Shown here: positions 7,278-64,000 of the stretch, one piece after another
Layout: each line of letters opens with the position of its first letter
Numbering within the stretch: the stretch's first letter is position 1
NCBI GenBank assembly: GCA_030625815.1
Contig: DAOUQF010000010.1
Span: 1-64,000, forward strand
Direction: 5' to 3'
Source of the DNA: Eubacteriales bacterium
Lineage (GTDB): Bacteria; Bacillota; Clostridia; Tissierellales; GPF-1
DNA length: 64,000 nucleotides
Made by a program: the position numbers and the translations under genes
The notes under the pieces: model-generated
The model's database searches: none
Told to the model about the DNA's origin: nothing
Seen by the model: only the letters and a program-made list of their open reading frames with translations

Positions 7278-7291
7278 TAGGGGGAAATGAA

Positions 7292-8209
7292 ATGAAAAAA
7301 ATCGTAGTAATGGGAAGTTTTGTTGTGGATTTGATGGGTCGAGCGGATCATCTTCCTGCACCGGGTGAAACGGTAAAGGGTGGTTTTTTCAAAGTTGGAC
7401 CCGGCGGAAAGGGCTCGAATCAGGGCGTTGCAGCCAAAAGAATGGGTGCCGATATTACCATGGCAACCAAAATTGGAAGAGATGAATTTGGTGATATTGC
7501 CATGAAAAGTTTTCAAAATGAAGAGATGGATACTGAACTTGTTTTTGTGGATGAAGAAGCTTCGACAGGAGCTGCATTGATCATGGTGGACGAAAACAGC
7601 AGTCAAAATAAAATTTTGGTTACACTAGGCGCCTGCGAAACATTGAATCAGTCGGATATTGAGAAGATTGAATCGGCAATTGACAACGCGGATATTTACT
7701 TAACGCAATTGGAAACAAATGTAGATGCGGTAGAGAAAACGATCGAGTATGCTGCTTCCAAGGAAAAGACAATCGTCTTGAACCCGGCGCCGGTACAAGC
7801 CATTTCGGATGAGATTTATCGTTGCATTGATATTTTCACGCCTAATGAGGTGGAAGCTGGAATCTTAGCTGGAATGGAAGTCAATGATTTTGATGACGCA
7901 AGAAAAGCAGCGAAAGTGTTTCAAGCGAAAGGTGTAAAAAACGTTGTCATCACCATGGGTAAATTGGGAGCGTACTTAAAGACAGCCGATGAGGAAGCGG
8001 TCATTGAAAGCTATACAGTAGATGCCGTTGATACAACAGGAGCAGGGGATGCCTTTAACGGCGGATTGGTCGCAGGGCTGGGCGAAGGAATGGGTTTATT
8101 GGAAGCAACGAAATATGCAAATGCGGTTGCGGCACTATCCGTTACGAAGGTTGGAACAGCGCCGGCGATGCCATATAAAGAGGATGTTTTGAAATTCATC
8201 AATCAGTAA
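7292..8209 (+). CDS. rbsK: Ribokinase-family sugar kinase
   Basis: The 305-residue PfkB-family kinase phosphorylates the imported sugar (ribose to ribose-5-phosphate in the classical pathway). The visible signatures are GPGGKGSNQGVAAKRMGAD near residue 40 and the C-terminal DTTGAGDAFNGG with the catalytic base at Asp253. Because deoC is in the same operon, a deoxyribokinase activity is an alternative. The ATG follows AGGGGGAAATGAA. It is the first structural gene after the second operator. Confidence 0.88.
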   Translation: MKKIVVMGSFVVDLMGRADHLPAPGETVKGGFFKVGPGGKGSNQGVAAKRMGADITMATKIGRDEFGDIAMKSFQNEEMDTELVFVDEEASTGAALIMVDENSSQNKILVTLGACETLNQSDIEKIESAIDNADIYLTQLETNVDAVEKTIEYAASKEKTIVLNPAPVQAISDEIYRCIDIFTPNEVEAGILAGMEVNDFDDARKAAKVFQAKGVKNVVITMGKLGAYLKTADEEAVIESYTVDAVDTTGAGDAFNGGLVAGLGEGMGLLEATKYANAVAALSVTKVGTAPAMPYKEDVLKFINQ

Positions 8210-8233
8210 GCGACATAAAGAGGAGGAGTTAAG

Positions 8234-8629
8234 ATGTTAAAGGGTGGAATTTTGAATCCGCAGATTGCGAAAGTTTTAGCGGATACGGGTCATATGGATA
8301 CAATTGTTGTCAGCGATGCTGGATTGCCCATGCCATTACAGGTAGAACGCATAGATTTAGCATGGAAACCCAATGAACCACGTTATTTGCCAGTTTTGGA
8401 TGAGATCATGAGCGGGATCGTTGTGGAAAAGGTGATATTGGCCGAAGAGCTGAAAACGGTGAGTCCTGAAATGCATAAAGAAATCTTGAAACGATTGGAA
8501 GGCATTGAAGTAGAGTATGTGGAACACGTTGAATTGAAAGAAATGACAAAATCAGCCAGAGCGATTATTCGGACAGGTGAATTCACACCATATCCAAGCA
8601 TTATTTTGGTTGCTGGATGTGCGTATTAG
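8234..8629 (+). CDS. rbsD: D-ribose pyranase
   Basis: The 131-residue protein matches RbsD: start LKGGILNPQIAKVLADTGHMD with the conserved histidine, middle LPVLDEI, and the C-terminal TGEFTPYPSIILVAGCAY. RbsD interconverts beta-pyranose and beta-furanose forms of ribose so that the kinase receives the furanose. It sits between rbsK and rbsA with a GAGGAGG site. Its presence favours ribose or a close relative as the transported sugar. Confidence 0.92.
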   Translation: MLKGGILNPQIAKVLADTGHMDTIVVSDAGLPMPLQVERIDLAWKPNEPRYLPVLDEIMSGIVVEKVILAEELKTVSPEMHKEILKRLEGIEVEYVEHVELKEMTKSARAIIRTGEFTPYPSIILVAGCAY

Positions 8630-8651
8630 GATTTCCTGAAAGGGGAAAAAG

Positions 8652-10172
8652 ATGGAGAGCAATCAGATATTAAGACTGGAGGAAATCACAAAAGAATTTC
8701 CAGGGGTAAAAGCCTTGGATCAAGTTCATTTGGACATTCTACGCGGTGAAGTGCATGCCTTGTGTGGAGAAAACGGAGCAGGTAAATCAACGCTGATGAA
8801 GATTATTTCAGGTGCGCAATCTTTTACCTCGGGAAGAATGTTTTTTGAAGGAGAATCCGTTCAGTTTAAAACGACAAGAGAAGCGCAAGATATTGGAATC
8901 TCGATGATTTATCAAGAATTCAATCTGATTCCAGAATTAAGCGTGGCAGAAAATTTATTTATTGGCCGCGTGCCGGTGAATCAATACGGGAAGGTAAATT
9001 GGAAAAAGCTAGATTCCGATGCACAAGTATTATTGAAGCGAGTCGGCCTTGAAATTTCAACCAAACAATTGATTTCGGAATTGACAATTGGTGAAGCGCA
9101 AATGGTCGAGATCGCAAAATGTCTTTCCTCAGATGCGAAATTGATCATCATGGATGAGCCAACTGCATCCTTGACGGACAAAGAAATCGAGTTTCTATTT
9201 CAAATTGTTGATAATTTAAAAAACCAAGGGATTTCAATTATTTATATCTCTCATCGCTTGGATGAAATTTTCGAGATTACGGATCGAATTACCGTATTTC
9301 GGGATGGGAAGTATATCGCGACAAAGATGACATCGGAAACGACTCATGATGAGCTGGTAAGTATGATGGTGGGAAAAGACATTCATGATCTTTATCCGGA
9401 ACGGAAAGTGGCAGTGGAAAAAGAAGCGACTGCTGTCCTTCGGGTCGAACAGGCAAATGACCATCAGAAAATTCATGATGTGTCATTTGAAGTGAAGTCG
9501 GGAGAGATTGTAGGCATTGCGGGTCTTTTGGGATCGGGAAATATCCGAATTGGGAAATTGATTTCAGGATACTATGGCGGTTTTGACGGCCAAGTTGAGA
9601 TCAATGGAAAAGCGGTTCAGATACATACACCGAGTGATGCCCTCGAGGCAGGGATTTCTTGCGTATCAGATGATCGAAAGATCGAAGGATTGGTGCTTAT
9701 TCGCTCGGTAAAAGAAAATATTAGTTTGGCATCTTTGCATCGATTATTGAAGAAGCGTATCTTCTCATCGATCGATAAGGCCAAGGAAAATCAGGTGGTT
9801 GATCATCAAATTGAAAGATTGAATATCAAAGTGTCCAGTTCGGATCAAATTGCCGGAAATCTAAGTGGCGGTAATCAGCAAAAGGTTGTCTTTGGGAAGA
9901 TGTTGGAAACAGCGCCTCAATTATTGATCTTGAATGAGCCGACACGAGGCATTGATATTGGTGCAAAAGCAGAAATCTATCAGATTATGCGAGAGTTGTC
10001 CGAGCAGGGAATCGGCATTATCCTTGCTTCATCGGAGTTGCCTGAATTAATCGGTATGAGTGATCGTGCACTGGTTATGAGGGAAGGAAAAATCGTGAAG
10101 GAACTTATGCACGAAGACCTGACACAAGAGAAGGTCTTGCTCTATGCAGCAGGGGGGATGAAAGATGAATAG
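8652..10172 (+). CDS. rbsA: Ribose ABC transporter, ATP-binding protein
   Basis: This 506-residue duplicated ABC ATPase has Walker A GENGAGKST (residues about 39-47) and Walker B LIIMDEPTASLTD in the first half. The second half has the signature NLSGGNQQKV and LLILNEPTRGIDIGAKAEIY, with a degenerate Walker A (GLLGSGNIR), as is usual in RbsA/MglA proteins. It powers the RbsB/RbsC importer. Its last eight bases overlap the rbsC start. Confidence 0.92.
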   Translation: MESNQILRLEEITKEFPGVKALDQVHLDILRGEVHALCGENGAGKSTLMKIISGAQSFTSGRMFFEGESVQFKTTREAQDIGISMIYQEFNLIPELSVAENLFIGRVPVNQYGKVNWKKLDSDAQVLLKRVGLEISTKQLISELTIGEAQMVEIAKCLSSDAKLIIMDEPTASLTDKEIEFLFQIVDNLKNQGISIIYISHRLDEIFEITDRITVFRDGKYIATKMTSETTHDELVSMMVGKDIHDLYPERKVAVEKEATAVLRVEQANDHQKIHDVSFEVKSGEIVGIAGLLGSGNIRIGKLISGYYGGFDGQVEINGKAVQIHTPSDALEAGISCVSDDRKIEGLVLIRSVKENISLASLHRLLKKRIFSSIDKAKENQVVDHQIERLNIKVSSSDQIAGNLSGGNQQKVVFGKMLETAPQLLILNEPTRGIDIGAKAEIYQIMRELSEQGIGIILASSELPELIGMSDRALVMREGKIVKELMHEDLTQEKVLLYAAGGMKDE

Positions 10173-11112
10173 TAAGGTAAGTCAATTATTAGCGAAATAT
10201 CGAACAGCATTGGTACTCGTAATGATTTTAGTCATTGCATCCTTTTTGTCTGATTCGTTTCTATCGATGGGGAACTTTATAAATGTGATTCGGCAGGTAT
10301 CGATTAACGCAGTTATTGCTGCCGGAATGACCTTTGTTATTCTGACAGGCGGAATTGACTTGTCAGTCGGTTCGGTAGTTGCTGTGGCAGGCGCTTTTTC
10401 TGCCGCAACTTTGACAGCTACTCAATCAACATTTTTAGCCGTCAATGTTGGGATGGTAACTGGAGCAATCTTTGGATTGGTGAATGGGTATGTCATTGTC
10501 AAAGAAAAAGTACCGCCCTTTATTGTTACATTGGCAACAATGGCGCTTGGCCGAGGCATCGTTCTGGTTTACACCAATGGATCGCCGATCGCGGTCAAGG
10601 TTGCAGCCTTTAAATTTATAGGCAAGGGGTATGTGTTTGGAATTCCATTCCCTGTCATCATTCTTTTAGCCGTATATTTGATCGCTTTTTATGTTTTGCA
10701 AAATACGAAATTTGGCCGAAACATCTACTGCCTGGGCGGAAATCGCGAGGCGACAAGACTTTCCGGCGTGAATGTTGGACGAGTTGAATTAATGGTCTAT
10801 GTGATCAGTGGATTGCTGGCCGGTATTACAGGAGTCGTATTGGCTGCACGGTTGGGTTCGGCACAGCCGACGGCAGGAACGGGTTATGAATTGGATGCGA
10901 TTGCTGCTGTTATTCTCGGCGGTACAAGCATGACCGGTGGACAAGGTTTTATTTTCTCAACGGTAATTGGTGCATTGATTCTGGGCGTACTCAGCAATCT
11001 GCTTGTATTGATGGATGTCAATCCATTTGCAACCAATATCGTAAAAGGCATTGTGATCTTATTGGCGGTTGTCGTGGATAATCGCTTTAAGAAATTATCA
11101 AAAACGAAATAG
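10165..11112 (+). CDS. rbsC: Ribose ABC transporter, permease
   Basis: The 315-residue integral membrane protein has about eight to ten hydrophobic segments and family motifs GGIDLSVGSVVA, KVPPFIVTLATMALGRG, GRNIYCLGGNREATRLSG and GGTSMTGGQG. It forms the channel of the sugar importer with RbsA. The start at 10165 overlaps the rbsA end, indicating translational coupling. Confidence 0.92.
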   Translation: MNSKVSQLLAKYRTALVLVMILVIASFLSDSFLSMGNFINVIRQVSINAVIAAGMTFVILTGGIDLSVGSVVAVAGAFSAATLTATQSTFLAVNVGMVTGAIFGLVNGYVIVKEKVPPFIVTLATMALGRGIVLVYTNGSPIAVKVAAFKFIGKGYVFGIPFPVIILLAVYLIAFYVLQNTKFGRNIYCLGGNREATRLSGVNVGRVELMVYVISGLLAGITGVVLAARLGSAQPTAGTGYELDAIAAVILGGTSMTGGQGFIFSTVIGALILGVLSNLLVLMDVNPFATNIVKGIVILLAVVVDNRFKKLSKTK

Positions 11113-11122
11113 GGGGAGAAAA

Positions 11123-12076
11123 ATGAAAAAAGCAGTAGCGTTATTACTCGTAATTTTTATGATGGTTGGTTTTGCAGGATGCTCCAACGGAGGAGCTTCA
11201 GAAGCACCGGCTCAAGAAGCAGATGATGTGATTCGTATTGGCTTGTCAATGAATACCCTAAACAATCCTTTCTTTGTAGATGTTGTGGAAGGAGCCAAAA
11301 AAGCAGCTGAGGAAAGAGGCATTGAGCTTATTGTAACGGATGCACAGAATCAACCCAGCAAGCAGCTGGAAGATGTTGAAAATATGCTGCAAAAGAAATT
11401 GGATTTGGTAATTCTGGATCCTTCCGACAGCGATGCGATTATTGCGGTTGTTGAATCGGCGAATGAGATGAATGTACCCGTATTGACGATTGACAGAAAA
11501 TCCAATGGCGGTGAAGTGATTGCGCATATCGGATTCGATGCGATCCTTTCTGGTAATATCGCAGGTCAATATCTGGTGGATCAATTGGATGGAAAAGGCA
11601 AGATTGTTGAAATCATGGGAATCATGGGAACAAATGTTGCCCAAGATCGAAGCAAGGGTTTCAATGAAATTATGGCGGCAACGCCTGGTTTCGAGATTGT
11701 AGCGCAACAAGCGGCTGATTTTGATCGCGCAAAAGCAATGGAAGTTATGGAAAACATCCTTCAGGCGAATCCGGAAATAGACGGCGTATACGCGGCAAAT
11801 GATGAAATGGCATTGGGCGCTTTGGAAGCAATCGAAGCGGCGGGCCGTCTTGATGAAATCACGTTGATTGGTTGTGATGCGATTGACCCTGCGTTGGAAA
11901 AAATCCGTGAAGGAAAACAAGAAGCGACAATTGCAGAACCGCCATTCTTCTTAGGTAAGAATGCCGTATTCACAGCCTTGGATGTTTTGGCTGGCAATGA
12001 GGTTGAAGCGGACGTTATTCTTGATTCTAATCTAGTGACATCAGAAAATGTTGACACAATCGTAACGAAGGAGTAG
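11123..12076 (+). CDS. rbsB: Ribose ABC transporter, substrate-binding lipoprotein
   Basis: The 317-residue protein has a signal peptide ending in a lipobox (VGFAGCSN, predicted lipidated Cys22) and a periplasmic-binding fold: IGLSMNTLNNPFFVDVVEGA, then VLTIDRKSNGG and GVYAANDEMALGALEA. It captures the sugar outside the cell for RbsC/RbsA. ATG 11123 follows AGGGGGAG. The ligand is probably a pentose; ribose versus deoxyribose cannot be decided from sequence. Confidence 0.9.
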   Translation: MKKAVALLLVIFMMVGFAGCSNGGASEAPAQEADDVIRIGLSMNTLNNPFFVDVVEGAKKAAEERGIELIVTDAQNQPSKQLEDVENMLQKKLDLVILDPSDSDAIIAVVESANEMNVPVLTIDRKSNGGEVIAHIGFDAILSGNIAGQYLVDQLDGKGKIVEIMGIMGTNVAQDRSKGFNEIMAATPGFEIVAQQAADFDRAKAMEVMENILQANPEIDGVYAANDEMALGALEAIEAAGRLDEITLIGCDAIDPALEKIREGKQEATIAEPPFFLGKNAVFTALDVLAGNEVEADVILDSNLVTSENVDTIVTKE

Positions 12077-53500: not shown

Positions 53501-53910
53501 TTTTTAATTATATTCACATTTCCTCCTTGATGTTCTTCCTGTTGATCGACTGGCGTTCAGTATTCTCACTCAATGATCGTAATTTTTCTCGACCCGTTTA
53601 TCCAGCTCAGCCGTTCTTCAGGAGAATTATAGGTGTTCGGTTAATAGTTTTTGGTGGAACCATCTCCTCTCTATGGATGTCTAGCATCCTTGTTACTTGT
53701 AATATACCACTTTATACTCATTCTAATCAGAATACTAGATATTGTGTGTTTTTCATTTGAATACACAAAGGACGCTATCCGATTACCATTGATTGGACAA
53801 CGCCCATCATGCTTTGATTTCATTTGAAGTTTTTGGTGGACTCCCCTCCTTTTATTCTTTTCTCAGGCTGATCTACCTCATTTGCGAATTTGGATTGTTT
53901 CATCTTTCAA

Positions 53911-54171
53911 CTTGCATGTTTCGTGGTTCACTTGCATGTTTCATGGATCGCTTGCATGTTTCGTGGTTCACTTGCATGTTTCATGGTTCATTTGCATGTT
54001 TCGTGTTACACTAGCATGTTTCATCTTTCAACTTGCATGTTTCGTCTTGCACTTGCATGTTTCATGGATCACTTACATGTTTCGTGGATCACTTGCATGT
54101 TTCGCAGTTCACTTGCATGGTTCATTTGCTACTAACATGGTTCATTTTCCAACTACATGGTTCTTTTCCAA
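53911..54171. repeat. Tandem array of a 20-bp unit, 13 copies
   Basis: The unit is CTTGCATGTTTCGTGGTTCA. Copies at 53911, 53931, 53951, 53971 and 53991 differ by one to a few bases. Copies 6 and 12 are 21 bp long, and the last three (from 54112) are degenerate with CATGGTTC replacing CATGTTTC. The unit has no stop codon in any plus-strand frame, so long open frames arise by chance; none has a ribosome site. The flanks 53501-53910 and 54172-54480 contain no gene that I can support, apart from a TATAAT before the exonuclease gene. Confidence 0.92.
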
Positions 54172-54480
54172 ATCCATGGGGTCATCGATCAGTCGCGGGC
54201 TATCGAAAGTGTTCGAATTTTCCTTTTCGTTCGATTGACATCTCAACCGATTCGAAGTAAAAATTCATGTTGCTATTCGATAGTCGGTGTTCCGGATTAA
54301 TGGAACCACCACCAGCTTCTGAGATCAAATTATATCAACTCAGCTTTCGCCAAGAGATATACCTTTTGGTAGTACATTAATACCACCTAGCCAACATATC
54401 AAACAAGAAAAGTGAGAAGTTTATAAATCATTCATAAGCATTGGGTATATAATAAAACAGAATGGCAAAAGGAGGAAAAC

Positions 54481-55817: not shown

Positions 55818-56083
55818 ATGGGTGAGTCCTTCTTATTGAAATTTGTTTTATATCACTTCTGGAGTTTACACCAAGCAATTTACACATATACCCGTGTTGG
55901 GCGCTGCATTGACAAGGAACCGTTGGAAGACTTCTGGGCAATCTTGAAACAGAGATATATCATTGGCGTAAAATTCAAGACTATGCTGATATGGTACGAA
56001 CTATTGATGAATAAATCGTTTTCTGCAATTGTAAGCATTATCAGAAACGTTTTAATCTGATGTCACCACTTCAATATCGATAA
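55818..56083 (+). pseudogene. Degenerate IS3-family transposase C-terminal remnant
   Basis: The frame shows YTRVGRCIDKEPLEDFWAIL followed by KQRYIIGVKFKT, the equivalent of the conserved catalytic end of IS3/IS150 OrfB (S-SR-G-C-DN-P-E-FW--LK). After a one-base frameshift it continues YADMVRTIDE, a stop, and then YQKRFNLMSPLQYR, which matches the usual C-terminus. At least one frameshift and one nonsense mutation show it is long dead. The gap 56084-56377 is AT-rich, with possible but unconvincing promoter boxes for the PTS operon. Confidence 0.62.
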
Positions 56084-56377: not shown

Positions 56378-57637
56378 GTGGAAAGAATAAGTGCAATGTT
56401 TGATTGGTATGGGATGTTACCGGCAGCAGTAATGATTATGGTTGGTATTTTTCTTATGGGGTTGCTTTTGGCAAGACTAAAGATTATGGAGGCGTTGAAG
56501 TCTTCAATTTATGTTGCATCTGGTATTGTTGGGCTCAATACGTTGATTGGGATGTTTGCTGGTGCTGCAATTCCACCACTGATTTCAGTTATTCAATCAA
56601 CAAATATGAAATTGGATATAGTTGACTTTGGTGTTGCTTCAGCACAGGCATCAGTTGTTTTTCCATTAAAGTTTTTTGGACTTCTATTTCCAATTGGGCT
56701 TGTAGTAAACTTTCTTTTAATTCTAATAAAGCAGACAAATACATTCGATGTTGATATTTTCAATTATTGGGTATTTGGAATGTCCTCGGCATTTACGTAT
56801 GCTGCAACTGAAAGTCTAGGGCTCTCGATTTTAGCATTTGTGATTACGGAAATTATTGTATTGAAGCTTGCTGATTTTACAGCACCAGTGATTGCAAAAG
56901 AATACGGACTCGAAGGCATCTCGATTCCTCACGGCAATGCTGTTGTATTCGCACCGGTAGGGATACTGGTTAACTGGATTATTGATAGAATTCCTTTCTT
57001 GAAGGACATTGATTGGAGTCCTGAAACAATTGAAGAAAGATTCGGTGGACTAGTAGAACCTTCAACCCTTGGTTTTTTTATGGGAATTGTTTTAGGAATC
57101 TTTGCGAAGCTTAATTTTGGTGATTGCCTATTATTAGGGGTCACGATCGCGGCATTTATGATAATTTTCCCAAAAGTACTTAATATATTGATTGAGGGAA
57201 TCCAACCCGTGGCTGAAGGCATGAGAGAAGTAACAGAGAAAAAATTGAATAGAAAGCTTTACATTGGTCTTGATGCTGCAGTGCTTGTAGGAATGCCTGA
57301 TGTCATGGCAACTGGCATTTTGTTAGTACCTGCGATCTTGGTTTTGTCATTTATTCTCCCAGGAAATCGTGTTCTTCCGCTTGCGGATCTTGCTATTGCC
57401 GCTCCATTTTTGGTATCTTGTTGCATGCCTTATTGTAAAAGAAATATTTTTAGGGGTTTTGTGAGTGGCATAATTGTTTTCATTATCACGCTATATATTT
57501 GTACAGATACCGCGGCTCTTTATACAGAAATCGCAAAAATCAATGGATTGCCATTTGATATGACGGCCACGTCTCTCGGTGCTGCTTCAAGTCCAATTAG
57601 CTGGATTATAGCAAAAGTCATGCTACTATTTTCATAG
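56378..57637 (+). CDS. PTS system, galactitol-type EIIC permease
   Basis: The 419-residue membrane protein has about ten to twelve hydrophobic helices and a galactitol-family EIIC pattern: AALKSSIYVASGIVGLN-like start region near residues 40-55, IPHGNAVVFAPVG, and DAAVLVGMPDVMATGILLVP. GatC-type permeases carry sugar alcohols or pentitols across the membrane while EIIB phosphorylates them. GTG 56378 is preceded by AAAGGAGGATG. It is the first gene of an operon with EIIB, four Trp-like genes and EIIA, so the substrate is probably not galactitol itself. Confidence 0.88.
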   Translation: MERISAMFDWYGMLPAAVMIMVGIFLMGLLLARLKIMEALKSSIYVASGIVGLNTLIGMFAGAAIPPLISVIQSTNMKLDIVDFGVASAQASVVFPLKFFGLLFPIGLVVNFLLILIKQTNTFDVDIFNYWVFGMSSAFTYAATESLGLSILAFVITEIIVLKLADFTAPVIAKEYGLEGISIPHGNAVVFAPVGILVNWIIDRIPFLKDIDWSPETIEERFGGLVEPSTLGFFMGIVLGIFAKLNFGDCLLLGVTIAAFMIIFPKVLNILIEGIQPVAEGMREVTEKKLNRKLYIGLDAAVLVGMPDVMATGILLVPAILVLSFILPGNRVLPLADLAIAAPFLVSCCMPYCKRNIFRGFVSGIIVFIITLYICTDTAALYTEIAKINGLPFDMTATSLGAASSPISWIIAKVMLLFS

Positions 57638-57704: not shown

Positions 57705-57992
57705 ATGAGTCAGAAGATAATTCTTGTAGCATGCGGAACTGGCGGAGTTACATCGAAAAACATTGCAATGAAAATTGAAAAACATCTTAAGAAAAAAGGA
57801 GTTGATTGTAAAGTTATTACATGTAAAGTCATAGAAGTCAGGTCAAAAGTGAAGATTTTGAAACCTGATTTGGTTGCATCGTCAACGCCTGTGCCAGATG
57901 TTGGAGTTCCTAGGGTTAGAGCGACTGCATTATTGACAGGAATAGATGTGGAAAAAGTTTACAATGAAATTTATGAAATTTTATCAAAGTAA
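57705..57992 (+). CDS. PTS system, galactitol-type EIIB
   Basis: The 95-residue cytoplasmic EIIB has the phosphocysteine loop VACGTGGVTS (Cys10) and the terminal helix typical of GatB. It receives phosphate from EIIA and gives it to the sugar in EIIC. The ATG follows AAAGGAG. It is 67 bp after EIIC; the EIIA gene is separated from it by three Trp-like genes. Confidence 0.9.
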   Translation: MSQKIILVACGTGGVTSKNIAMKIEKHLKKKGVDCKVITCKVIEVRSKVKILKPDLVASSTPVPDVGVPRVRATALLTGIDVEKVYNEIYEILSK

Positions 57993-58023: not shown

Positions 58024-59058
58024 ATGATCAAAAATAATGATACATTGTGGTACGGTCAGTATGGAGGATGCTTTATTGCAGATGCATTCTCCCTCGATTG
58101 CGACAAATACTATGATGAATACAAGAAAATTGTGCGGCAAGATGGTTTTGAAAAAGAGTTTGAACAGCTGAAAGCTGAATATTCTCCTGTTGAATTCAAG
58201 TTGTTAGAAACGGAAGATGAAAACCTTATGGTAGGTATTGCGTCGGAAAACTTGTACTCGATCATTGGAACTATTTTGCTTGCAAAGCATATGAAAAAGG
58301 AAAAAGTTGTATGCGGAACCAGATATACTGATGAAGCTATGCTTTGTGCGAAATTATGCAAAAAATATGGACTAAAATTAAAAATGTTTATGTCTAAAGA
58401 TATTTCTTCAATTTCTTCACTTATGGTACAGATGAAAACATACGGTGTTGAAACCGAAACGTGCATGTGTGAGGAACTCTTTAATTTGCCGGAGATGTAT
58501 GCGTTCCAGACGTGGGTTGCCGCACCTCAAGAATATGTTCTTATCAACTGCCGTAACAATGTCGGTGCTTTCCCTCATCCTAATATTGTTTCTGATTTTG
58601 CAAGTGTATATGGAGAAGACTTGAAATTAGCAATGGAGAGTATGGGTATGCCAAGTCCTGAAAGAATTGTTGTTCCAAGTGTTAGTGGGACATTTGCATT
58701 AGGAGTATTTGGAGCTTTTGACAGCAAAACAATAGAATTTGTGACTGTAGAATGCGATGAAGAGGATGATTTGCAGGAAGAACTTGATAGTTATTGTGGT
58801 ACTTTCACAAAAGTAATGCGGAATAGATACAATGATCGAGTGCTTGCGCCAGAGTTGTCAAATATGTTTGATAACGGAGAGGTTTTGAGAAAACTAGGGA
58901 ACATAAGTCAAATAGATACAAATCATTCTGATTTATTATGCAGCCAGACTGATTTCTCTGTTCAAAGTTTAGCTGGATTGAATTATTGTGAAAAGAATAC
59001 GGATAAAAAATTGACGCTATGTTTGGTTAGAAATACCAGGTGGGGAGCGGTATTATGA
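58024..59058 (+). CDS. TrpB-like protein lacking the PLP lysine
   Basis: The 344-residue protein aligns by eye along its length with tryptophan synthase beta. It starts WYGQYGGCFIADAF (TrpB: YGQFGG-YVPE), has ILLAKHMKKEKVV (TrpB: LLAKRMGKKRII), a YVLINCRNNVGAFPHPNIVSDF stretch (TrpB: YLLGSVAGPHPYP-MVRDF), and VPSVSGTFALGVFGAF where TrpB has the phosphate loop GGGSNA. The PLP lysine of the TrpB motif GAHKIN is replaced by Asn76, the catalytic Glu109 region is lost, and GGGSN is gone. It cannot be an ordinary PLP enzyme; a structural or allosteric partner for the TrpA-like proteins is the best inference. Its TGA overlaps the next ATG. Confidence 0.78.
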   Translation: MIKNNDTLWYGQYGGCFIADAFSLDCDKYYDEYKKIVRQDGFEKEFEQLKAEYSPVEFKLLETEDENLMVGIASENLYSIIGTILLAKHMKKEKVVCGTRYTDEAMLCAKLCKKYGLKLKMFMSKDISSISSLMVQMKTYGVETETCMCEELFNLPEMYAFQTWVAAPQEYVLINCRNNVGAFPHPNIVSDFASVYGEDLKLAMESMGMPSPERIVVPSVSGTFALGVFGAFDSKTIEFVTVECDEEDDLQEELDSYCGTFTKVMRNRYNDRVLAPELSNMFDNGEVLRKLGNISQIDTNHSDLLCSQTDFSVQSLAGLNYCEKNTDKKLTLCLVRNTRWGAVL

Positions 59059-59903
59059 GTAACAGAATAGAAGAAACAATAAAAAGGGCTCAGGATCAAG
59101 GGAAAGTTGCTTTTATAGGACTTGTTCCAATAGATCCTGAATCCATGGATAATTCCATGGAAATTGTTGATATGATGATTTCTTCTGGAGTGGATATTTT
59201 GATGGTGCATATACCGAATTGGTTTCCATGGATGGAAGGAACCGTGCTTCAAAAAGCAGCACAGATGCCGCGAAATGCCGGAGTAACAAGAGATAATGTA
59301 TTTGAATTCATAAAAACAATTCGGATTAAATATCCTGAAATACCAATTATTAATATGACATTGTATGAGACGGTTATGACTATGGGACAAGAGCGGTTTT
59401 TGAAACTTTCTAAAGAAGCGGATGTTGACGGATTTGATATTCCCAATTACCCTTTGTTTTATACAGCCGATAAGATGGAATTTTATAAGGAATGTTTAGA
59501 AAGAAATCAACACCTTATATTGGCAATTTCATATGAACTTGTAGTATCAGAGGAAGGTTCTGATGAATATATATTGCTTAGAAAAATGATAGACGCGGCA
59601 AAAGGTTTTGTTTTTGTAATGAATGCTCCTGGAGGACAATCGGGTTCTGATGTAAAACTTACAGATCAACAATTGACTATGGCAGTTGGTCGAGTGAAAG
59701 ATCTAATGAAGGAACAGGGGAATGACTGCTACATTTCTATTGTTTGCGGTATTTCTAGTAGTGAAGATATCAAAAAAGTAAAAGTATCAGGAGCACATTG
59801 TTTTATGATAGGTAGCGCCTATATAAAATCACTTCAAGATGGTCAGACGTTAGATGAAATATCTGATTATTTAGAGGGTGTCAGTGAAATGTGCAATTAC
59901 TAA
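59055..59903 (+). CDS. TrpA-like protein 1, catalytic residues replaced
   Basis: This 282-residue TIM-barrel protein is of the tryptophan synthase alpha family. Alignment to TrpA puts Met50 at the catalytic Glu49 position and Glu61 at Asp60 (HIPNWFPWMEG replaces GVPFSDPLADG). The phosphate-binding elements persist: GGQSG for GVTG, VCGISSS for GFGISS, and MIGSAYI for SGSAIV. The protein therefore probably still binds a phosphorylated ligand but not by the standard chemistry. It is translationally coupled to the TrpB-like gene (ATGA), as in real trpBA operons. Confidence 0.8.
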   Translation: MSNRIEETIKRAQDQGKVAFIGLVPIDPESMDNSMEIVDMMISSGVDILMVHIPNWFPWMEGTVLQKAAQMPRNAGVTRDNVFEFIKTIRIKYPEIPIINMTLYETVMTMGQERFLKLSKEADVDGFDIPNYPLFYTADKMEFYKECLERNQHLILAISYELVVSEEGSDEYILLRKMIDAAKGFVFVMNAPGGQSGSDVKLTDQQLTMAVGRVKDLMKEQGNDCYISIVCGISSSEDIKKVKVSGAHCFMIGSAYIKSLQDGQTLDEISDYLEGVSEMCNY

Positions 59904-59922: not shown

Positions 59923-60765
59923 ATGAATATAGTTGAAAAAAGATTCTTTGACTATGAAAAGCATAACAACGGTGGGATTATTGTTGAAATACCACTTCTT
60001 CCACCTATTCCAACTACTCAAATAGATGTGGCTTGTACGCTTGTAGAGTCTGGAATAGATATTATCCAAGTATCTGTACCTGTACGATTCCCATGGATGT
60101 ATGGTGAACGGCACCTTAACTTAGCAAGAAATGCAGCGATCAATGATGTCGATTACAAGCAATCTTTTGAGGTGTTAGAAAAACTGACCAAGCAGCATGA
60201 GGGCGCGGAATTCATGCCAGTTGGGTTTTATGGTGGAATTCAGCGTATGGGGCAGGATAAATACATCAGTGAATGCAAAAGATTGGGAATCCGTTTAGTA
60301 GATGTTCCTGATTATCCGCTTGTACATGACCAGGATCCCAAAGGATTGGTGGGTGAACTTAGAAGTAAAGGTATTAGCTATGTAACTATTTTCAATACAG
60401 AGTTGGCATTAGCACCAGAAGGGACTAGAGCGTATCAAAATTTGTGCAAACTAGTTGCACAATCATCAGGATTCTGTTTCTTGTTGGCTGCGGCAGGTGG
60501 AAAAACGGGGGAAAAGAAAAGTTTTGAATATGATGGACTTTTGCGAGCAAAAGAGCGACTACTTAGTATTCAGAAAAGAATGGATCGTAGATGTCCAATA
60601 GTCGTCGTTTGTGGTATATCGACCCCTGAACAGGTTCGTATTCTTGTAAAAGAAGTTGGAGTCCATGTTATGTTTGGTAGTGCATTATTCAAAAGAATGA
60701 TGAATGGTGACAGTCAAAGAGATATTGCTGAGTTTTTGACAAAAATGAAAAGAGCGGCAACTTAA
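59923..60765 (+). CDS. TrpA-like protein 2, catalytic residues replaced
   Basis: The 280-residue second TrpA-like barrel has Gln49 at the catalytic Glu position and Tyr60 at the Asp position (VPVRFPWMYGER). It shares the FPWM-G substitution with TrpA-like protein 1, so the two are sister paralogues that diverged from TrpA together. The phosphate loops GGKTG, VCGIST and MFGSALF are kept. It starts at ATG 59923 after GAGAGG, 19 bp after the preceding gene. A heteromeric complex with the other Trp-like products is plausible. Confidence 0.8.
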   Translation: MNIVEKRFFDYEKHNNGGIIVEIPLLPPIPTTQIDVACTLVESGIDIIQVSVPVRFPWMYGERHLNLARNAAINDVDYKQSFEVLEKLTKQHEGAEFMPVGFYGGIQRMGQDKYISECKRLGIRLVDVPDYPLVHDQDPKGLVGELRSKGISYVTIFNTELALAPEGTRAYQNLCKLVAQSSGFCFLLAAAGGKTGEKKSFEYDGLLRAKERLLSIQKRMDRRCPIVVVCGISTPEQVRILVKEVGVHVMFGSALFKRMMNGDSQRDIAEFLTKMKRAAT

Positions 60766-60777
60766 GTGAGGCGGAGT

Positions 60778-61251
60778 ATGGAGAATCAAATTGTTTTAAA
60801 TAGCAAGTCAATTGACTTGGAATGTGAATTAGAAACAAATCATGAGGTATTAAAATACTTAGTTTCACTTTTGGAAAAACAAGGATTTGTTGATTCAAGA
60901 TATACGACGGTTGTTATAGAGCGTGAAGATAATTATCCGACTGGTCTTGAATTTCCTAAAATTTGTATTGCATTACCACATGGGGATCCTAAATTTGTTA
61001 AAGAAGCATCTATTGCTATTGCACGATGTAAGAATAGAGTGGATTTTAAGAGTATGGAAAACCCAGAAGATTCAATAAGTGTTGACATAGTTGTTTTGCT
61101 TGCTGTTAAGGAGCCGGAGAGGCATCTGCAAGTTCTTAGCAATTTAGTGAATCTGTTTATGATTGAAGAAAATTGTGAACAACTATTGACAACGAATAGT
61201 GTTAATACGGTATGCAACTTATTTGAAGCAAATTTATATAAGGGAAACTAA
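60778..61251 (+). CDS. PTS system EIIA, fructose/galactitol type
   Basis: The 157-residue EIIA domain protein has the phosphohistidine at His68 in TGLEFPKICIALPHGDP, the form typical of mannitol/fructose/galactitol EIIA. It accepts phosphate from HPr and passes it to EIIB. ATG 60778 after GAGGCGGAG is preferred to GTG 60766. Its position behind two TrpA-like genes shows that the PTS and the Trp-like proteins are one operon. Confidence 0.88.
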   Translation: MENQIVLNSKSIDLECELETNHEVLKYLVSLLEKQGFVDSRYTTVVIEREDNYPTGLEFPKICIALPHGDPKFVKEASIAIARCKNRVDFKSMENPEDSISVDIVVLLAVKEPERHLQVLSNLVNLFMIEENCEQLLTTNSVNTVCNLFEANLYKGN

Positions 61252-61287
61252 GAATAAAAATTGGCGGAAACAATGAGGTGCGCAAGC

Positions 61288-61317
61288 AGACTGATTACTT
61301 ATTAAAGGAGTCAGTCT
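61288..61317 (+). other. Hairpin in the 324-bp gap before the third TrpA-like gene
   Basis: AGACTGA (61288-61294) pairs with TCAGTCT (61311-61317). A ribosome-site-like AAAGGAG lies in its loop, before a 10-codon TTG frame that I do not count as a gene. There is no T run. It could separate expression of the last gene from the PTS operon. Confidence 0.4.
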
Positions 61318-61575
61318 ATTGAGTGAGATCAAAAAAGATCATAAAAATTAAAAAATGATTGATAGGGAAGAATAGATGGTTGAGAATTTCAAATGCGTTG
61401 GTAGAGCCTGTTTGCTTTATTACAGGAGTCGGCAAAGCATTTGACGATGTGATTGTAAGTAGGAGAATCGATTTTTGTTAGAGCAAAGTTGTGATCGAAT
61501 TTAATATGATAACTAATTGATTATTGTGTCGTAGTGAGAGTGTTGAAAAAATATGATGAGAAGGAGATTAATGGT

Positions 61576-62352
61576 ATGAATAGAATGGAGAGGATTTTTA
61601 ACCAGATGATGGAAAATGACGAAAAGATTTTAGTTTCTTATTTCCCGTTATGTGATACTGCTTTAGCTGATCAAGTAGGATGGGCTGGAAAGTACTTTGA
61701 CAATGGAACAACAGTGCTTGAAATGGGATTGCCATATGAGGATCCGTGCCTTGATGGGAAAACAGTAAGAGATTCTATGGAAAGAGCATTGGTTGACAAT
61801 ACGGTAGAAGATGCGTTTGAAGTTATTAAGAACTTGCGGAAGGCATATCCAGACAATATTCTTCAGGTTATGTCGTATTTCGAGATTCTTGAAAAAATCG
61901 GTTTAGATGAGTTTGCAGCTAAATGTAATGAAGCCGGTGTGGATGCGGTTCTTACGCCAAATATTGCTCCAGATCGAGTGCCAGAACTGGATGCTGCACT
62001 AGGAAAGTTTAATATTATTCATTTGCGTTTTGCACCTTTTACTCTTACGGATGAAGTGATTGAGGATCTTAAAAAGAATGCAAAAGGCTATATTTTCCAA
62101 CAGGCAGTTGATGGTGCAACTGGTCCGCAAGATACAACATCACCACAAGTTGGCGTTAATGTAAAATTATTGAAGGAGCTTGGTGTTAAAACTCCGGTTG
62201 TGGCAGGTTTTGGTATTTCCAATCAGCAACAGGTAGGTGAAATGAAAGATATGGGAGTCGATGGTGTAATTGTAGGAAGTAGCATTCTTACCTCAATTGT
62301 TGCGGGTAATGGAGCCGATTTTATTAAAAGTTTAAGGGGAGCATTAGAATAA
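61576..62352 (+). CDS. TrpA-like protein 3 with intact catalytic residues
   Basis: The 258-residue tryptophan synthase alpha-type TIM barrel keeps both catalytic acids at the canonical numbers, Glu49 and Asp60 (VLEMGLPYEDPCLDGK). It also keeps the phosphate loops (GATG, GFGISN, VIVGSSIL) and the normal TrpA length. TrpA performs the retro-aldol cleavage of indole-3-glycerol phosphate to indole and glyceraldehyde-3-phosphate. No TrpC, TrpD or true TrpB is near, so it more likely cleaves a related phosphorylated compound supplied by the PTS. ATG 61576 follows AAGGAG. Confidence 0.85.
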   Translation: MNRMERIFNQMMENDEKILVSYFPLCDTALADQVGWAGKYFDNGTTVLEMGLPYEDPCLDGKTVRDSMERALVDNTVEDAFEVIKNLRKAYPDNILQVMSYFEILEKIGLDEFAAKCNEAGVDAVLTPNIAPDRVPELDAALGKFNIIHLRFAPFTLTDEVIEDLKKNAKGYIFQQAVDGATGPQDTTSPQVGVNVKLLKELGVKTPVVAGFGISNQQQVGEMKDMGVDGVIVGSSILTSIVAGNGADFIKSLRGALE

Positions 62353-62406: not shown

Positions 62407-62435
62407 TTGCATAAACATTTGTTTCAATATATAAT
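62407..62435 (+). promoter_or_regulatory. Promoter of the PRD regulator gene
   Basis: TTGCAT (62407-62412) and TATAAT (62430-62435) are spaced by 17 bp. A hairpin, AAGAGATTG at 62443-62451 with CAATCTCTT at 62469-62477, begins right at the expected transcription start. Confidence 0.6.
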
Positions 62436-62602
62436 AATGTTTAAGAGATTGGTTCCTTGATAATGAATCAATCTCTTTAGCACTCTCATAAAGATGATTT
62501 GAAGATTATGTGAAGCATTAAAGGAATTGCGAGCGAGAAAAGACGGGAAAGAATAGTTAGAATGTAGCGTATAAGAGGATTTGGGATGATTGAAGGTGAA
62601 TT

Positions 62603-64000
62603 ATGATTGTTATAACTCAAAGGTGCTATAGATTGCTTGAACTACTCTGTACTAGCTATGGATTTATAAGCGTGCGAACAATTGCTGATGAATTAAAAGT
62701 GAGTGAAAGAACGGCACGTTATGATATTTCACTTTTAGCTGACTGGCTTTTTGAAAAGGGAATCAGTCTGCAAAATGTACCTAAAAAAGGGATTTGCATT
62801 GAAGAAGCAGGTGCTAAGCAAGCGCGTGCTTTCTTAATAGATTATCAGACGAATACAATCAACAAAGAGATTTTTCTGAATACTGAAGCTCGAGCAAATA
62901 TTATTATTGGATATATTCTTGAAGGCAAAGTGCGTAAAACAATCAATAACATGGCTACCAGTTTTGGTGTCAGCAGAACAACATTAATTCGAGATTTGGT
63001 TAAAGTCGATGATTGGTTTATAACTCGTGGATACGAAGTGTTGAGGGATCGGAAAATAGGTTTTTATATCGATGTAGATGAAATTCAGAGAAGAAGGCTC
63101 ATGGTTGAATTTATTATAGAGCATGTAGGAAACAATTCGTTTTTCCAGCAGTTGGGATATCAGGAAATGGGTTTAAGAAAGAGTTACGGATTGCAGGGGA
63201 GTCAGTTATTTGCAAAATATATTGTAGAAAGCGAGAAATTCAAGGAAGTAATTGAGGATTCGAATTTGATGTTTTCTGAGATCAATATACATGTTTCGGA
63301 TAATTCCTTTATTTGGTTTGTTTACTACATTGCGGTTTCATATGCAAGACTTGAGGCTGGAAATAGCATTGTAGTATTCCCTCAGAAGTACAATGATTTT
63401 CAGGATTCGAGGATAAGTTGTAAAGTGGAAAACCAGTTTAGAGCGAGGAATTTCGAAAATATTTCAGAGGAGAATCTGATTAATGAAGCCGCCTATCTTA
63501 CGGCTAGAATTATAGCTGCTACAAAGAGTGATACGGAAAATGTAAAAACATACAACAATGAATTGTCGAAAAACGTTTTTGAATATTTTGTTGATACTTT
63601 TGAAAAAGAAACAGGATACAATTTGTGTAATGATGTAAGTTTAGCGGAATCATTAAAAATGCATTTGTACGCTTCCATTGCCAGAGTACAGCTAAAAATT
63701 CAAACACAAAATGGAATGATTGAGGAAATAAGAAACAGTTTTTCTGATATTTATGAAATATGCCATAAGATTTTTCTTGATATTAAAGATAACTTTGGAA
63801 TGGATTTTGATGAAAATGAGATTGGTTTTATTACTCTCTATGTAGCAACATCTATGAATAAGGGAGCAAATAATAGTTCTTCAAAGAAAGTCAGAGTTGT
63901 GTTGATCTGTGGTTACGGTGTGGGAACAGTATCATTTTTAAAAAAATCGCTTGAGAGAGAGTTTCCTAGCATTGAAATTATAAAAAAGCTTCCTGCTTAT
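62603..64000 (+). CDS. PRD-containing PTS transcriptional regulator (partial)
   Basis: The frame is open from ATG 62603 to the end of the window (466 codons) and the C-terminus is missing. It has a DeoR/Mga-like N-terminal helix-turn-helix (SVRTIADELKVSERTARYDI) and a second one (INNMATSFGVSRTTLIRDL). Two PRD-like helical regions follow, the second with DENEIGFITLYVATSM. The start of an EIIB-like domain comes last, with CGYGVGTVSFLKKSL. This is the BglG/MtlR activator architecture. Its activity would be set by phosphorylation from the PTS, so it is the likely activator of the operon upstream. Confidence 0.88.
   Translation, partial: MIVITQRCYRLLELLCTSYGFISVRTIADELKVSERTARYDISLLADWLFEKGISLQNVPKKGICIEEAGAKQARAFLIDYQTNTINKEIFLNTEARANIIIGYILEGKVRKTINNMATSFGVSRTTLIRDLVKVDDWFITRGYEVLRDRKIGFYIDVDEIQRRRLMVEFIIEHVGNNSFFQQLGYQEMGLRKSYGLQGSQLFAKYIVESEKFKEVIEDSNLMFSEINIHVSDNSFIWFVYYIAVSYARLEAGNSIVVFPQKYNDFQDSRISCKVENQFRARNFENISEENLINEAAYLTARIIAATKSDTENVKTYNNELSKNVFEYFVDTFEKETGYNLCNDVSLAESLKMHLYASIARVQLKIQTQNGMIEEIRNSFSDIYEICHKIFLDIKDNFGMDFDENEIGFITLYVATSMNKGANNSSSKKVRVVLICGYGVGTVSFLKKSLEREFPSIEIIKKLPAY

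Follow-up and report, generated by a model that had tools for sequence, protein, structure and literature searches.

Tryptophan synthase (TrpA/TrpB) is the textbook complex for channelling and allostery, and we know of a single reaction for its alpha subunit, TrpA; nor do we know of any metal-free, cofactor-free sugar-phosphate lyase in the TrpA family. As for catabolic systems, the galactitol PTS operon (gat) encodes EIIABC, a dehydrogenase and a tagatose-bisphosphate aldolase, and a literature search brought up no account of TrpA-like genes in a PTS operon. Maize BX1 and the plant indole-3-glycerol phosphate lyase are TrpA homologues with the same acids and without a functional TrpB, and in the plant TSB-like system a dead TrpB paralogue, with two key residues changed and 69% of the interface residues kept, activates TrpA (PMC12727527). 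The roles of Glu49 and Asp60 in TrpA are taken from PMC11574760 and PMC6608616; Asp60 is placed at the indole N-H (PMC11574760).

The window, i.e. the whole stretch of 64,000 nucleotides analysed here, contains an operon that combines PTS genes with three TrpA-like genes, named A1, A2 and A3, and one TrpB-like gene:

56378..57637, + strand: PTS EIIC, permease of the galactitol (Gat) family, 419 aa; 189 bits to Pfam EIIC-GAT
57705..57992, + strand: PTS EIIB, 95 aa; Pfam PTS_IIB, with the phospho-Cys motif VACGTGG
58024..59058, + strand: TrpB-like protein, 344 aa; profile match to TrpB
59055..59903, + strand: TrpA-like A1, 282 aa; 104 bits to Pfam Trp_syntA, orthologues at 65%
59923..60765, + strand: TrpA-like A2, 280 aa; 65.7 bits to Pfam Trp_syntA, orthologues at 60-61%
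60766..61251, + strand: PTS EIIA (EIIA_2 type), 161 aa; 108 bits to Pfam PTS_EIIA_2, phospho-His in ALPHGD
61252..61575, + strand: EIIA-A3 intergenic region, 324 bp, with a hairpin at 61288-61317; 84 and 17 bp in the related loci
61576..62352, + strand: TrpA-like A3, 258 aa; Glu49, Asp60 and phosphate site kept, indole pocket altered
62603..64000, + strand: PTS regulator, 722 aa in full, running to contig position 64771; HTH, PRD, EIIB-like Cys and EIIA

Two further loci with the same genes, L057 from Candidatus Mediterraneibacter pullicola and L058 from a Lachnospiraceae metagenome-assembled genome, were found by scanning an alignment of A1 and A2 against one genome per species in 84,980 species. 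EIIA, EIIB and EIIC with their phospho-residues occur together with a PTS regulator, as in a PTS catabolic operon, and the phospho-Cys of EIIB and the phospho-His of EIIA are intact at all three loci. EIIC is 66-67% identical in L057 and L058, and the regulator 38-39%. Regarding the substrate, EIIC scored 312.7 bits against TIGR00827, below its cut-off of 542, so that the imported compound is probably one other than galactitol itself. The locus thus resembles gat in its Gat-family EIIC, its EIIB and EIIA, its own regulator and its catabolic character, and it differs in that the dehydrogenase, the kinase and the class II aldolase are missing, with TrpA-like barrels in their place. From the PTS genes to the regulator, none of the three loci has a sugar-phosphate dehydrogenase or kinase gene, which leaves the Trp-like proteins as the only candidate enzymes there.

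The A3 frame starts with ATG at 61576, preceded by a good ribosome-binding site (GAAGGAG), and stops at 62352; with the alternative in-frame start, GTG at 61534, the protein would have 272 aa. The protein scored 162 bits against Pfam Trp_syntA (PF00290; cut-off 27) and 158.7 bits against NCBIfam trpA (TIGR00262; cut-off 102.35), and weak HisA and IGPS matches appeared in its C-terminal half in the Pfam-type profile search. The solved structures nearest to its predicted model were those of TrpA (Z 14-15); the AlphaFold models of A3 (mean pLDDT 56.5) and of the TrpB-like protein (both pLDDT about 56) are of low confidence and were used for fold class only. A3 is a TrpA-fold protein, and its pattern is not a product of chance, because two orthologous loci, at 62-66% identity, show it too.

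The original prediction described A3 as a third TrpA-like protein of standard length lying outside any trp operon, and this agrees with what was found: its 258 aa match TrpA, the window holds three TrpA-like genes, and the genuine trpBA lie on another contig. The window genome has four TrpA matches in all, the three in the window and a canonical one beside trpB, and it also encodes IGPS (indole-glycerol-phosphate synthase). Since the real trpBA are elsewhere, the idea that the locus is a trp-operon remnant was rejected. It is very hard to credit that A3 is a redundant alpha subunit of tryptophan synthase, an extra trpA misplaced beside a PTS operon. A3 does pass the trpA equivalog cut-off; however, the genome has its own canonical pair, A3 is 28.6% identical to that TrpA, Asn104 and Tyr175 are missing, and the gene moves with the PTS genes between taxa in a conserved order that contradicts misplacement. 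A1 passes the same equivalog cut-off, and the label "tryptophan synthase subunit alpha" given to such proteins by automatic annotation can therefore mislead. A second TrpB with PLP motifs (L051, G000:C12 64241-65011) was also noticed in the genome, on a different contig from the trp operon.

The active site was compared by aligning the three A3 orthologues, A1 and A2 with 35 canonical clostridial TrpAs, in the numbering of the E. coli protein (1xc4). Glu49 is invariant in the canonical set (35/35), and position 60 is Glu in 31 of its members and Asp in 4. Alignment to E. coli TrpA confirmed that A3 has Glu49 and Asp60 at the canonical numbering, as had been claimed, and these two residues are kept in 3/3 A3 proteins along with Tyr102, Thr183, Gly184, Gly211, Phe212, Gly213, Ile232, Gly234 and Ser235; the phosphate site (Gly184/Gly213/Gly234/Ser235) and the loop-6 Thr183 are thus all conserved. 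Among the TrpA-like proteins of the operon, A3 alone combines Glu49, an acid at position 60 and the whole phosphate site.

The indole pocket, whose positions we take from the alignment and from general knowledge of TrpA structure, is instead altered. A3 has Pro in place of Thr24 and Glu or Lys in place of Asn104; in the pocket, residue 153 and Tyr175 are replaced by Phe, residues 176 and 177 by Gln, and Ser178 by Ala. Positions 175, 177 and 178 read Phe, Gln and Ala in all three A3 proteins, and the canonical pocket (Tyr175, apolar 177, Ser178) is found in 35/35 TrpAs; the Gln and Phe residues of the altered pocket occur in none of the 35, which at 176 and 177 carry other, mostly apolar residues. 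The pocket geometry follows from the sequence alignment, the predicted models being of low confidence. Compared with TrpA, A3 therefore shares the fold, both acids, Thr183, the phosphate site, the length and the Pfam and NCBIfam cut-offs, and departs from it in belonging to a PTS operon and not to a trp operon, and in residues 104, 175, 177 and 178.

Taken together with the gene content, these residues argue for A3 as a retro-aldol lyase for a PTS-delivered phosphorylated compound, a reading that we hold at slightly better than even odds (about 0.55). The suggestion in the original prediction that A3 could be the catalytic engine of the PTS system gains support, as no other of the TrpA-like proteins has Glu49, an acid at position 60 and the whole phosphate site, and in three genomes the A3 gene shares an operon with the PTS genes.

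The other suggestion of that prediction, a TrpA paralogue giving free indole for signalling as BX1 does, found no support. In its broader form it holds that A3 cleaves indole-3-glycerol phosphate, or a PTS-phosphorylated indole- or aryl-glycerol, and, like BX1/IGL or TSA with TSB-like, frees indole or a related aromatic compound. A3 has a canonical phosphate site and the canonical residues Glu49, Asp60, Tyr102, Phe212 and Ile232, and the retention of Asp60 is compatible with an indole-like substrate; the operon also encodes a pseudo-partner of TrpB type, which parallels the plant TSB-like system (PMC12727527), and the PTS-linked TrpA-like protein of Jeotgalibaca, described below, has a canonical-like pocket. 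Against this stand the changes at 175, 176, 177, 178 and 153, two of them to Gln at positions where canonical TrpAs do not have it. Moreover, in the draft assembly of one operon host (G954) neither canonical TrpA nor IGPS was found. A3 also scored 130 bits to the best bacterial-type TrpA and 83.5 bits to maize BX1 (1tjr), so by score it is not BX1-like; it has the acids of BX1 and, judging from its neighbour, no functional TrpB partner in the operon, but it is nearer to bacterial TrpA, has a PTS context and has an altered pocket. Finally, cleavage of an indolyl compound leaves two extra, diverged TrpA-like barrels unexplained. Given the changed pocket and the content of G954, indole release seems the less likely outcome and free-indole signalling by A3 likewise; we regard this alternative as unlikely.

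As for A1 and A2, the first has Met at 49 and Glu at 60, and the second Gln at 49 and Tyr at 60. Judged by the alignment, Glu60 of A1 is no loss, because Glu is the commonest residue at this position in clostridial TrpA. The two proteins pair as sisters in the unrooted tree (99/97), share a new invariant Asp127 and keep the phosphate site; an FPWM/MPWM motif was observed in their loop 2. With Asp127 and this motif, they look rebuilt toward a new chemistry and not decayed. They bear on the possibility that A3, too, is an isomerase, an epimerase or another phosphate-barrel enzyme that uses the PTS product, with its acids kept for proton transfer: A1 and A2 show that the operon remodels the TrpA barrel, and HisA and IGPS, TIM barrels that share this phosphate site and match the C-terminal half of A3, if weakly, catalyse other chemistry. 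A3, unlike A1 and A2, retains the exact Glu49/Asp60 pair and the Thr183 of retro-aldol cleavage, and we consider this possibility doubtful, if marginally less so than the release of an aromatic.

The TrpB-like protein matched TrpB chains with a profile E of 1.4e-13, and TrpB was the nearest fold to its low-confidence model (Z 17). At 3/3 loci the PLP lysine Lys87 is replaced by Asn, Glu109 by Gly and Gln114 by Asp, and the PLP phosphate loop is altered; the stretch with SAGLDY is absent, Lys167 is not kept, and of the 148 columns that are invariant across 47 canonical TrpBs the protein retains 21. With the lysine, Glu109, Gln114, the phosphate loop and SAGLDY changed or lost, the protein should be unable to carry out TrpB chemistry. 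The most conserved block, FNLPEMYAFQxW, aligns next to the Lys167 position; this and EELDSYCGxFTKVxRN are its strictly conserved motifs, and no PLP site was seen. The likeness to plant TSA with TSB-like is that an alpha homologue with its acids (A3) stands beside a beta homologue that appears catalytically dead; the differences are that the PLP lysine is lost here as well, that only those 21 columns are left, and that three alpha-like proteins are present against one.

The whole Trp-like set, with its apparently PLP-dead TrpB-like member, could also form a sensory or regulatory complex that serves the PTS regulator in place of a catabolic pathway, with A3 binding a phosphorylated ligand without turnover; in two genomes the A3 gene overlaps or closely precedes that of the regulator. 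For PTS sensing, however, the regulator is already equipped with PRD and EIIA modules and an EIIB-like Cys, and strict conservation of the catalytic acids is unexpected in a binding protein, which makes such a role improbable.

Returning to the lyase, the Gat-family PTS would import and phosphorylate a polyhydroxy compound, and the enzyme set derived from tryptophan synthase would then degrade the phosphorylated product. A1 and A2, without Glu49 and with Asp127, probably carry out a preceding isomerisation or epimerisation, and the TrpB-like protein, without PLP chemistry, is probably a scaffold or an allosteric partner. A3 would be the carbon-carbon lyase: Thr183/Gly184, Gly213 and Gly234/Ser235 would hold the phosphorylated tail, Glu49 would serve as general base/acid on the hydroxyl beside the scissile bond, and Asp60 would stabilise the leaving fragment. 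It would release a triose phosphate, probably glyceraldehyde 3-phosphate, which would need no second kinase step to enter glycolysis; the absence of a kinase and a dehydrogenase from the operon agrees with a lyase whose substrate is a monophosphate. More tentatively, the whole set of three alpha-like and one beta-like proteins may form a catabolic multi-enzyme complex with A3 as its metal- and cofactor-free sugar-phosphate lyase, a proposal we rate below the lyase itself. If true, it would be a natural case in which both subunits of tryptophan synthase were duplicated, one alpha copy keeping its acids, two being rebuilt and the beta copy losing its cofactor site; it would illustrate the reuse of such a complex for a new chemistry and would offer a testable problem of substrate discovery.

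Regarding the position of A3, the original prediction stated that the gene lies 324 bp from the PTS operon, separated by a hairpin, and precedes the PTS regulator. The distance is exact (EIIA ends at 61251, A3 starts at 61576) and the regulator does follow, from 62603. The hairpin exists as sequence (arms 61288-61300 and 61305-61317), but it gives no evidence of separation, because it has no T-run and the region folds slightly better than its shuffles (z -1.76, 6/100); a terminator between EIIA and A3 was rejected on the same grounds. In L057 and L058 the genes run EIIC-EIIB-TrpB-like-A1-A2-EIIA-A3-regulator, with HPr and a HAD phosphatase next; EIIA and A3 are 84 and 17 bp apart in the two loci, and A3 ends 29 bp before the regulator at one of these loci and overlaps it by 4 bp at the other. 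It follows from the shared order and the short gaps that A3 is part of the PTS operon and that the window is unusual in its 324-bp spacing; given this distance, A3 could have its own promoter there. The HPr and HAD (Cof-type) phosphatase genes after the regulator (8445-9602 in L057, 15152-16280 in L058) do not follow it in the window genome. In the interval between A3 and the regulator of the window there is a long imperfect inverted repeat (62430-62490, 29-nt arms, 76%).

The operon was seen in three species of gut-type bacteria, a count that is a lower bound because the searches of sampled relatives used different operon members as query and the scan of genome contigs finds only relatives sharing its short patterns. 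No further copies were found in 391 genomes sampled from the class, 398 from the phylum and 397 from the Lachnospiraceae, in 58 and 37 genomes of the two genera, or in the two sister species of the window genus; apart from the known loci, the class, phylum, order, family and genus samples gave canonical TrpA and TrpB only, and viral contigs gave no match to the window proteins or their alignments. Compared with the Lachnospiraceae loci, EIIC, EIIB and A1-A3 of the window genome show 60-72% identity, against 43% between its canonical TrpA and that of G955. The operon genes have a G+C content of 33-40% (25-33% at third positions), and the long reading frames in the rest of the window have 45% (46% at third positions, sd 7). 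With identity above that of canonical TrpA and G+C below that of its surroundings, the operon was likely spread by horizontal transfer, and A3 would belong to a small mobile catabolic operon.

The plasmid search yielded canonical trp operons where these were looked at (e.g. Enterococcus raffinosus), plus one operon of regulator, EIIA, EIIB, Ula-type EIIC and a TrpA-like gene on plasmid pMA1X17-3 of Jeotgalibaca sp. MA1X17-3 (L079 71-3624; NZ_CP090984.1, about 7280-11582). Its EIIC reached 383 bits (cut-off 380); its TrpA-like gene, the only enzyme gene of the operon, scored just under the trpA equivalog cut-off. Like A3, this PTS-linked protein keeps Glu49 and Asp60 and has Pro24 and Glu104; the differences are the Ula (ascorbate)-type EIIC, the single TrpA-like gene and a near-canonical pocket. 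As the TrpA-like protein is the single enzyme there, the operon suggests that it acts directly on the imported phosphorylated compound. Its profile scores were 49 bits to A3 and 74-90 bits to canonical TrpA, so that its recruitment may be independent of that of A3; the tree groups the PTS-linked TrpA-like proteins, but long branches, profile scores and AU tests do not settle a single origin. A recombinase gene adjoins this operon.

Upstream of EIIC in the window, an 80-aa reading frame (55818-56060) resembles by eye the end of an IS3-type transposase; it had no Pfam match, and an IS remnant here is a possibility by eye without Pfam support. Farther upstream, at 53896-54179, a tandem array sits between ileS and an exonuclease III-type gene; its 20-bp unit, ACTTGCATGTTTCGTGGTTC, occurs in about 10 copies, and the array is nested within a repeat of 121 bp.
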